64,000 nt of DNA from an uncultured Verrucomicrobiota bacterium (GTDB taxonomy: Bacteria > Verrucomicrobiota > Verrucomicrobiia > Limisphaerales > UBA9464). A model generated the notes under the pieces. The model was given only the letters and a program-made list of their open reading frames with translations. It was not told the origin of the DNA and did no database searches. Both the position numbers and the translations under genes were made by a program. Below are positions 17,658-20,270 of the stretch, piece after piece; within the stretch, counting starts at the first letter, position 1; every line of letters begins with the position of its first letter. The DNA lies in NCBI GenBank assembly GCA_903922605.1, contig CAIXUG010000056.1, forward strand, positions 1-64,000, in the 5' to 3' direction.

Positions 17658-19223
17658 TCAGTGCTTCAGCAACGCGTACTCCATCGAGTCCACCAGCGCC
17701 TGTAGCGACGCGGTGATGATGTTCTCGCTGACGCCGACGGTGCCCCATTCGCGCTTGCCGTCGGTGGACTGGATCAGCACGCGCGTTTTGGCGGCGGTGC
17801 CGGCCACCCCATCGAGGATGCGGACCTTGTAGTCGGTTAGCGCGATCTTCTTCAGTGACGGAAACGACTTGGCAAGCGCGGCGCGCAGCGCTCCATCGAG
17901 CGCGTTCACCGGGCCGTCGCCTTCCGCGACCGTGTGATGCACCTGCTTGCCGACGCGAACCTTGACTGTGGCCTCGCAGACGGAGCTGGTGCCATTGCCC
18001 CGCATGGAAACGTGATAGGAATCCACCGTGAACAGCAGTTCCGGGTTCTGATCCAGCACGCCGCGGATGAGCAGCGCGAGCGAAGCCTCAGCGGCCTCGT
18101 ATTCGTAGCCGGCCGATTCTAGCTCCTTGACCCGGGTGGTGATGGCACGTGCTTCCGGCGCGTCGGGCGTGAGCTTGAAACCCAGTTCGGCGGCCTTGAG
18201 CAGGATGTTCGTCCGGCCCGACATGTCGCTTACGAGCACCCGGCGATGGTTGCCGACGGATTCGGGCACGATGTGCTCGTAACTCCGGGCCACCCGCTCG
18301 ATGGCGTGGACATGGATGCCACCCTTGTGGGCAAAGGCCGTCTGGCCAACCCACGGCTGGCGCGTGTCGTGACGGACGTTGGCGATCTCGTCCACGAACT
18401 CCGAAAGCTCCTTCAGCTTCGGCAGCGATTTCACCGGCACCCCAACGCGGCCCATCTTGAAATGGACGGTGGGGATGACGCTGGTGAGGTTGCAGTTGCC
18501 GGTGCGCTCGCCATAGCCATTGATCGTGCCCTGGATGTGGTCGGCCCCGGCCTCCAGCGCCGCGATGCCATTCGCCACGCCGAAACCGCAGTCGTTATGG
18601 GTGTGGATGCCGATCCGGGCGTTCAGTTTGCCCCGGGCAAAGGTGACGATGCGGCTGACCTCGCTGGGCAGCGCGCCGCCGTTCGTTTCGCAGAGACAGA
18701 TGACGTCGGCTCCGGCCTTTTCGGCGGCCTGCCAGGTGGCGAGGGCGTATTCGGGCTCGTCCTTGAAGCCGTCAAAGCTGTGCTCGGCGTCATAGACCAC
18801 GATTTTCCCCTGGTCCTTCAGGTAACGGATGGTGTCGCCGATCATGCCCAGGTTTTCCTCGGGTTTGACGCGCAGCACTTCGGTGACGTGCAGCAGCCAC
18901 GTCTTGCCGACGATGGTCACGACCGGCGTCTTGGCGTCGAGGAGCATGCGGACCTGCGGATCATCCTCCACGGGAACACCCTTTTTCCGGGTGAAGCCGA
19001 AACTGGCGATCTGGGCATGTTTCCACCGGCGTTTGGCGGCCTGCTGGAAGAATTCCATGTCCTTGGGGTTGGAGCCCGGCCAGCCGCCCTCGATGTAATG
19101 CACGCCAAACTGGTCGAGCCGCTCGGCGATGCGGAGCTTGTCGGCCAGGGAAAAGTTGATCCCCTCGGCCTGGGCGCCGTCGCGGAGGGTGGTGTCGTAT
19201 ATTTCTACTTTGCTCGGCTTCAT
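17658..19223 (-). CDS. cimA: (R)-citramalate synthase
   Basis: 521 residues. CimA condenses pyruvate with acetyl-CoA to citramalate, the first step of the threonine-independent isoleucine route. The DRE-TIM barrel motifs are VEIYDTTLRDGAQAEGINFS, VHYIEGGWPGSNPKD, DAEHSFDGFKDEPEYALAT, ICLCETNGGALPSEV and the metal site IGIHTHNDCGFGVANG. The C-terminal LeuA-type allosteric domain is present (VKVRVGKQVHHTVAEGDGPV; ALTDYKVRILD). The length of about 520 and the AEHSFDG motif favour citramalate synthase over LeuA. It is preceded by an isoleucine-rich leader peptide and a terminator, consistent with control by isoleucine supply. Confidence 0.95.
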   Translation of the reverse strand: MKPSKVEIYDTTLRDGAQAEGINFSLADKLRIAERLDQFGVHYIEGGWPGSNPKDMEFFQQAAKRRWKHAQIASFGFTRKKGVPVEDDPQVRMLLDAKTPVVTIVGKTWLLHVTEVLRVKPEENLGMIGDTIRYLKDQGKIVVYDAEHSFDGFKDEPEYALATWQAAEKAGADVICLCETNGGALPSEVSRIVTFARGKLNARIGIHTHNDCGFGVANGIAALEAGADHIQGTINGYGERTGNCNLTSVIPTVHFKMGRVGVPVKSLPKLKELSEFVDEIANVRHDTRQPWVGQTAFAHKGGIHVHAIERVARSYEHIVPESVGNHRRVLVSDMSGRTNILLKAAELGFKLTPDAPEARAITTRVKELESAGYEYEAAEASLALLIRGVLDQNPELLFTVDSYHVSMRGNGTSSVCEATVKVRVGKQVHHTVAEGDGPVNALDGALRAALAKSFPSLKKIALTDYKVRILDGVAGTAAKTRVLIQSTDGKREWGTVGVSENIITASLQALVDSMEYALLKH

Positions 19224-19253: not shown

Positions 19254-19293
19254 TGGAAAAAAGAAAAACCCCGCTCTGCATCGCAGAACGGGG
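19254..19293 (-). terminator. Intrinsic terminator in the cimA leader (attenuator)
   Basis: Read on the minus strand, the 5' arm ccccgttctgc (19293-19283), a gat loop and the 3' arm gcagagcgggg (19279-19269) form an 11-bp stem (one U-G pair), extendable by three A-U pairs. Next comes tttttcttttttcc down to 19254. It lies about 30 bases upstream of the cimA ATG, inside the untranslated leader, so it would stop transcription before the gene. Positions 19290-19278 can instead pair with 19325-19313. Confidence 0.85.
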
Positions 19294-19325
19294 TTTGGGG
19301 AAAAGGGAAACTCGTTCAGCGATGC
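19278..19325 (-). promoter_or_regulatory. Antiterminator competing with the cimA leader terminator
   Basis: On the minus strand gcatcgctgaacg (19325-19313) is complementary to cgttctgcgatgc (19290-19278): twelve base pairs and one U-U mismatch, with a 22-base loop. The second segment contains most of the terminator's 5' arm plus its loop, so the two structures exclude each other. The first segment overlaps the last codons and stop (TGA, 19318-19316) of the leader peptide. A ribosome that finishes the peptide would mask it and favour termination; one stalled at the Ile codons would leave it free. Confidence 0.7.
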
Positions 19326-19429
19326 TGTGGGGGCCGAATAATCGGGCTAATGGGGCAAATCGAGATGACCGGTCCGGCTTCCGAAGAACGGAAGAAGCCA
19401 GTTGACGAACTCGTTGTGCCAAGCACCAT
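19316..19429 (-). CDS. Isoleucine-rich leader peptide of cimA
   Basis: A 37-codon frame from the ATG at 19429 to TGA at 19316. Residues 21-34 read VISICPISPIIRPP: five Ile codons (22, 24, 27, 30, 31; ATC then four ATT) in ten positions. It sits directly upstream of the antiterminator and terminator. In known leader-peptide attenuation (trp, ilv, his operons) ribosome stalling at such codons prevents termination. Weakness: I see no Shine-Dalgarno sequence before this ATG. The in-frame GTG at codon 2 or a start further upstream is possible. Confidence 0.65.
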   Translation of the reverse strand: MVLGTTSSSTGFFRSSEAGPVISICPISPIIRPPQHR

Positions 19430-19595: not shown

Positions 19596-20270
19596 ATGAA
19601 CATGTTTGGCAGCTTTACTCGGTCGGTCAGTCTGTTGGCTGCATCCACGCTCGTTTCGGGCGCGTTGATGGCAGCGGCAAAAACCGGTCAGGCGGAATTC
19701 AAGAAGGTTGAAGGCTCTGTCTGGCTGGACTCTGCGGCCGCCAAGGTGGGCGATATCGCCACGCCCGGTGCCACCGTCAAGACGGAGGCTGCTTCCAAGG
19801 CATCCCTTTACCTCGGCATCAACGGGCCCTACGTCAACCTCAAGGAGTCGAGCGCGCTGACGATCACCGACCTGACGTACGATGACGGCGGGGCTGAACA
19901 GGTTTCCCATACTGCGCTGACTCTGAAGTCGGGCGGCATGGAAGGTGACGTGGTGAAGAAGTCTTCGCAGTCCACCTATGTCGTGACCACGCCGACCGCA
20001 ACGGCAGCGATCCGCGGCACGAAGTTCGCGGTGACGCCGAAGGGTCAGATTGTCGTTTTCGAGGGCTGCGTGGACGTCTCGTACAAGGGCAAGGACTTCA
20101 ACGTCTGCAAGGGCCAGTACTTTGATCCCACCGTCGGTGACGCCGGCGGAGTGGCCGACTTTACTGCCGGCCAGTTCGAGGAACCTGACTTCACCAACTT
20201 GGGTGACGATACCGGCTTCGACAACCAGCCGACCGGCCCCGAAGTCTTCGTTTCTCCGAAGCGGAACTGA
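19596..20270 (+). CDS. Secreted FecR-domain protein
   Basis: 224 residues from MNMFGSFTRSVSLLAASTLV, a signal peptide ending near AAA. The FecR-like core is visible: KKVEGSVWLDSAAAKVGDIA, TPGATVKTEAASKASLYLG, VKKSSQSTYVVTTPTATAAI and RGTKFAVTPKGQIVVFEGCV, then an acidic tail. The GTxFxV pattern is the usual FecR signature. In this setting it is not a transmembrane sigma regulator but an exported beta-rich protein. A gene for a CHASE2 adenylate cyclase follows, a recurrent pairing in bacteria; the FecR protein may be a periplasmic partner of CHASE2. Confidence 0.85.
   Translation: MNMFGSFTRSVSLLAASTLVSGALMAAAKTGQAEFKKVEGSVWLDSAAAKVGDIATPGATVKTEAASKASLYLGINGPYVNLKESSALTITDLTYDDGGAEQVSHTALTLKSGGMEGDVVKKSSQSTYVVTTPTATAAIRGTKFAVTPKGQIVVFEGCVDVSYKGKDFNVCKGQYFDPTVGDAGGVADFTAGQFEEPDFTNLGDDTGFDNQPTGPEVFVSPKRN

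Follow-up and report, generated by a model that had tools for sequence, protein, structure and literature searches.

Upstream of cimA in the window (the whole stretch of DNA that was analysed, 64,000 nucleotides long), a short reading frame rich in isoleucine codons is followed by a hairpin and a U tract. The question raised by this locus is whether these parts make up a device that adjusts transcription of cimA to the supply of isoleucine. The preliminary description read the region as a case of classical attenuation, a reading that held in every comparative test that was run, and we conclude, on comparative grounds, that the cimA leader is very probably a ribosome-mediated, isoleucine-specific transcription attenuator.

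The cimA leader in the window

The controlled gene, cimA (17658-19223, minus strand), encodes a 521 aa (R)-citramalate synthase; its product scores 690.4 bits to the NCBIfam equivalog TIGR00977 (cut-off 450), which confirms the identity initially proposed. The intergenic region is divergent, with a plus-strand gene beginning at 19599, and the gene downstream of cimA lies on the opposite strand, so that the leader can only serve cimA, and a terminator on the minus strand would act only on the cimA leader or on an antisense RNA.

The leader frame occupies 37 codons on the minus strand (19429-19316), as first described, translates as MVLGTTSSSTGFFRSSEAGPVISICPISPIIRPPQHR with a UGA stop at 19318-19316, and yields a peptide whose C-terminal end is ...VISICPISPIIRPPQHR-stop. 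Its assignment is supported by the frame-specific enrichment of Ile codons across 38 loci, the start codon being the presumed part. The five Ile codons in ten residues that had drawn attention to it are ATC, ATT, ATT, ATT and ATT (19366-19337, minus strand); they begin at 19366, 19360, 19351, 19342 and 19339, which corresponds to positions -16, -14, -11, -8 and -7 from the stop, and a regulatory role for these codons within the last 16 of the frame is suggested by their positional conservation and the preference for ATT. Such a concentration is rare: at least five Ile codons occur in four of the 127,940 ten-codon stretches in all frames of the window. No consensus sigma-70 promoter was found upstream of the leader and no Shine-Dalgarno sequence upstream of the ATG at 19429, and the leader start and the promoter are therefore uncertain. 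Just 5' of this ATG lies the sequence TTGCCC-N16-TAGCCT (19464-19437, minus strand), which as a promoter is only a guess and too weak to claim; if it were one, the mRNA for the leader peptide would be nearly leaderless.

Downstream of the frame is a predicted terminator hairpin (19296-19266, minus strand) with a 5' arm, strand 3, of sequence AAACCCCGUUCUGC (19283-19296), a 3-nt loop (19282-19280) and a 3' arm, strand 4, of sequence GCAGAGCGGGGUUU (19279-19266), followed by UUCUUUUUU, with the U tract at 19265-19257. The hairpin and U tract noted originally are thus real features of the sequence, and the 11 bp then assigned to the hairpin represent the GC-rich core of a stem that has 14 bp when the flanking A-U pairs are counted. 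The putative antiterminator strand, strand 2 (GCAUCGCUGAACG plus AGUUUC; 19307-19325, minus strand), overlaps the last leader codons and, as had been recognized, the UGA stop. Its core GAACG (19317-19313) can pair with CGUUC (19290-19286) in strand 3, which can alternatively pair with strand 4. Over a longer stretch, 19325-19313 (GCATCGCTGAACG) matches 19290-19278 (CGTTCTGCGATGC) in 12 of 13 positions, exactly as described, with a single U-U mismatch, and the chance expectation for a 12/13 match to the antiterminator strand is 0.0075 per 60 nt. The close spacing between the last Ile codon and the antiterminator arm also stands, although it amounts to 11 nt and not to the 12 given before. The leader up to near the cimA ATG folds below shuffled sequences in energy (z -3.7). 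For the 1:2 pause (anti-antiterminator) hairpin, the predicted fold of the window has a weak 4-bp CAGC/GCUG stem, and no consensus emerges from the 38-sequence cimA alignment, the left edge of which may cut it off; such a hairpin is predicted in the consensus of the ilvB and leuA leaders considered below.

Conservation and geometry of related leaders

A protein search recovered cimA in 43 of 50 genomes of the window's family (f1), and the element was present in every complete cimA upstream region of that family that was inspected. The comparison proposed at the outset, an alignment of related cimA upstream regions, was made with 38 distinct regions that carry the element, some of them from family f6. 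The leader frame was set from the conserved UGA stop without regard to Ile content, and the last 20 codons were counted. Ile codons make up 143 of 760 (18.8%) in the leader frame vs 12 of 722 (1.7%) and 17 of 722 (2.4%) in the other two, a difference for which the binomial p of about 1e-90 assumes independent loci and, as the loci are related, is to be read as an order of magnitude. The rest of the peptide diverges, isoleucine being the sole residue kept at -6 to -16, and four of the 38 leaders (L005, L027, L116, L121) have a single Ile codon within the last 20. This pattern points to selection for Ile codons in the cimA leader. The choice of codon is also unusual: the leaders use ATT 94 times, ATC 49 times and ATA never (94/143 ATT), vs 144 ATT, 886 ATC and 21 ATA in the cimA genes themselves (886/1051 ATC), and the preference of the leaders for ATT is stronger than the bias of their other NNY codons. 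Ile codons that are otherwise avoided would raise the likelihood of a stall.

Both structures are conserved as well. In the terminator, 96.8% of the cells are paired across the 38 sequences, with compensatory change at four pairs. In all 38 the stop is a UGA within the antiterminator, and the GAACG/CGUUC pairing shows little or no variation. Of the antiterminator cells 84.9% are paired vs 79.8% in shuffles, 42 are doubly changed vs 19.4, and the covariation is 0.182 vs 0.113; none of 500 shuffles reached any of these values, a statistic that is inflated by the relatedness of the 38 leaders. Slid versions of the pairing all score far lower. The most informative part is the extension of the antiterminator into the terminator loop, because the terminator leaves the loop positions unconstrained: the run of pairs with a leader's own loop is 4.0 vs 2.9 with swapped partners (0 of 5000 swaps were as good), and this advantage persists with 25 thinned representatives. 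Column pair 22:64 occurs as three Watson-Crick types (C-G, U-A, A-U), and at columns 19-21 there are between four and six standard pair types. Hardly any variation is seen across the 38 sequences in the core triple GAACG / CGUUC / GAACG, as expected if one segment must pair with two others. When the strand-2 side of each leader is shuffled for comparison, the antiterminator segment reaches a z of -2.9 on average; in about a quarter of the 38 leaders, taken singly, it is no better than at least 10% of the shuffles.

The arrangement of the Ile codons relative to these structures follows the same logic. Counts are highest at -8 (24) and -7 (18) and drop to four at -6 and one at -5. Ile codons are almost absent over the last codons (-5 to the stop), the part in which a ribosome that stalls would come to cover the antiterminator strand. 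The folding was also predicted with an imposed ribosome footprint that extends 12 nt from the A site. With the ribosome halted at the final Ile codon and strand 4 not yet made, 33 of 38 leaders are predicted to form the antiterminator core; with the ribosome moved on to the stop, all 38 are predicted to form the terminator. Three leaders have their last Ile codon at -3, where a stall would block the antiterminator; earlier Ile codons remain in these.

The model suggested by these data is one in which RNA polymerase would transcribe the cimA leader with a ribosome behind it. When Ile-tRNA is ample, the ribosome would reach the UGA stop and cover the antiterminator strand, so that strand 3 would pair with strand 4, the terminator would form and transcription would end ahead of cimA. 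Under a shortage of Ile-tRNA, the ribosome would stall on an AUU or AUC codon 7-16 codons ahead of the stop, with its leading edge immediately 5' of strand 2; strand 2 would then pair with strand 3 before strand 4 exists, no terminator would form and cimA would be transcribed. These steps in the cell, and the control of cimA by isoleucine itself, are proposed by analogy with proteobacterial attenuators and with mutational work on the ilvBNC leader of Corynebacterium glutamicum. In the sequences compared, the leader sequence, its frame, the two predicted structures and their spacing are seen to be maintained in all the respects that an attenuation mechanism would require, and in the alignment (n=38) the Ile codons, the two pairings and the placement of the stop codon proved conserved and covarying.

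Alternative explanations

Riboswitches and T-boxes, too, use a premature terminator and an alternative pairing as their expression platform, and the same parts could in principle belong to a terminator-controlled element that binds isoleucine or uncharged tRNA-Ile, with the leader frame being incidental. Rfam 15, however, gave no match for the cimA, ilvB or leuA leader (the best was rnk_pseudo, with 21.3 bits against a cut-off of 55), and thus no T-box among the known families. Outside the Ile codons, conservation starts only near the stop codon, which leaves no conserved aptamer, and the Ile codons are kept in a single frame while the remaining peptide diverges; we consider an element of this kind highly improbable. 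A similarly slight probability is assigned to a leader peptide that acts via nascent-chain arrest, for example at its Pro-rich end IRPPQHR, or via a general slow-down of translation, instead of through the supply of Ile-tRNA. Polyproline stalling is established, and the peptide of the window does contain PP and PIIRPP near the stop, but the Pro residues are not conserved, only Ile being kept at -6 to -16 in diverged peptides, and the sister leaders are rich in Leu or Val, each fitting its pathway.

Finally, the hairpin could be an ordinary terminator, of an antisense RNA or a small RNA, next to an Ile-rich frame that arose by chance. Terminators after rpsI and other genes do score weakly with the cimA model. 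Against this, there is no minus-strand gene upstream to terminate, the competing pairing over the stop codon is conserved and covarying, and each genome holds a single copy of the element, which always lies at cimA. Across the whole family this explanation is refuted by the frame enrichment of Ile codons together with the covariation of the antiterminator, and we attach next to no probability to it.

Sister leaders, known attenuators and history

In proteobacterial attenuators (leu, ilvGMEDA, ilvBN, thr, his, trp), a leader peptide with many residues of the regulated amino acid is combined with a terminator and a competing antiterminator, and the stop is placed to cover strand 2. The cimA element resembles them in all of these parts, and on the features tested it belongs to the classical leader-peptide attenuators. 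It differs from them in the gene, cimA, which serves the pyruvate route to isoleucine (Escherichia coli uses ilvA), in its Ile-only codons and in its phylum, and it is not related in sequence to any of the leader families in Rfam. In C. glutamicum, the ilvBNC attenuator has the leader peptide MTIIRLVVVTARRLP with BCAA codons, and its terminator, antiterminator and anti-antiterminator are backed by mutation (PMC11857589, PMC10272879). That leader controls AHAS and holds Ile, Val and Leu codons together, whereas in the window's order the three are found at three genes, Ile at cimA, Val at ilvB and Leu at leuA. Among candidate attenuators of Actinobacteria (trp, leuS, ilvB), complementary antiterminator/terminator triples of the type gGCC-rGCy-GGCC are absolutely conserved, and the frozen triple of the cimA element (GAACG-CGUUC-GAACG) is of a similar nature, although that set is without a cimA case (PMC1262725). 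A survey from 2010 listed leader-peptide systems from no phyla other than Proteobacteria and Actinobacteria until it added a case from Firmicutes (PMC2965389). We found no report of cimA or ilvB attenuation in Verrucomicrobia in a full-text literature search, which mostly did not extend to subscription papers, so that a prior report is possible; this result is consistent with the preliminary description, whose author knew of no Ile leader for cimA in the phylum. The novel aspects are the gene, the phylum and the existence of three separate BCAA sensors as a set.

The other two members of this set lie elsewhere in the window's genome. Upstream of leuA on contig C64 (minus strand, locus L192) lie (V)IRILSLRLIALALLLSRATVGA-stop and a terminator, and GCGACGGUUGGGGC, the strand that overlaps the last codons, matches GCCCCGCUGUCGC. 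Upstream of ilvB, at C25:2330-2462 (minus strand, locus L189), are MQFGAQLVVVLVAGGDAAAGTVGA-stop and a terminator, and at this locus and the f1 loci L224-L253 the leader peptide follows a Val-rich pattern, ...LVVVLVAGG.AAAGT.RA-stop. Leu codons account for 22.8% in frame vs 4.6% and 7.6% in the other frames of the leuA leaders (20 f1 loci among L194-L223), and Val codons for 17.3% vs 2.7% and 9.3% in the ilvB leaders (30 f1 loci), percentages that are somewhat flattered because, where several stops were possible, the one with the most Leu or Val was taken. The leuA terminator is missing in several genomes of the family. Both leaders share with the cimA element the architecture, the genomes and an antiterminator strand placed over the last codons. 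To judge from these comparisons, the cimA leader is one of three BCAA attenuators in its genome, which the preliminary description had not noticed. The separate Val and Leu attenuators would complement that of cimA, each branch-point enzyme reading an end product of its own branch; a single genome could thus sense Ile, Val and Leu individually, each at a different one of three branch-point genes, with the cimA leader as a rare Ile-only attenuator. A full BCAA attenuator set is thereby placed, with strong comparative support, in another phylum.

Covariance models indicate how far the three leaders extend. The ilvB model (R2) matches 264 and the leuA model (R3) 223 of 320 genomes of the window's order, and for the ilvB model a draw of 388 genomes from the phylum gave no match outside this order. 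When 18 matches outside the window's family were opened, all eight ilvB ones preceded ilvB and seven leuA ones preceded the same kind of leuA; the other three, found with the leuA model, precede distant LeuA-type proteins (31-33% identity), and a simple leader pick failed there. The model of the cimA element (R1), run on the same 320 genomes, has strong matches only in f1, f6 and one f9 genome, at cimA, and no match in the rest of the phylum. In the window's genome there is no true R1 match besides cimA, the remaining matches being ordinary terminators, and weak matches sampled elsewhere in the order were rejected as terminators after rpsI and similar genes. The cimA element is thus limited to three families, in contrast to the ilvB and leuA leaders, which are order-wide and of separate sequence; as the Leu and Val models match most genomes of the order, the cimA switch is a lineage-restricted member of an order-wide attenuator set. 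This difference in range would make the birth and transfer of attenuators traceable.

The CimA tree adds a further aspect to this history. Within the window's family, genus g8 falls into a different, well-supported clade from the other CimA proteins, and a grouping of all CimA proteins of the family is rejected (p-AU 1e-4; with f6, 3e-5). The g8 loci (L179-L185) nevertheless have the same Ile leader with the same core as L001-L032, and two inventions of the leader are unlikely because that of g8 is nearly identical. Most simply, this would mean that the leader was kept while the coding sequence behind it was replaced, or that lineages have exchanged leader and gene. A more comprehensive view, for which we see about as much in favor as against, is that all BCAA synthesis in the order may be controlled by amino-acid-specific leader-peptide attenuators, each branch having its own sensor (Val at ilvB, Leu at leuA, Ile at cimA), and that the cimA switch may be a later addition that outlived its gene when a distant homologue took the place of the cimA coding sequence in one genus.

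Among 52 cimA loci without the attenuator, 38 (e.g. L069-L073, L079-L086) display a different conserved architecture in the last 95 nt before the ATG. It consists of TTTTGGGATTTGCCA and, after about 17-22 nt, TAGAAA or GATAAT, a promoter-like arrangement of which 0.7 are expected in shuffles, and the boxes are followed, just before the start codon, by a short hairpin such as CCGTTTTTACGG.
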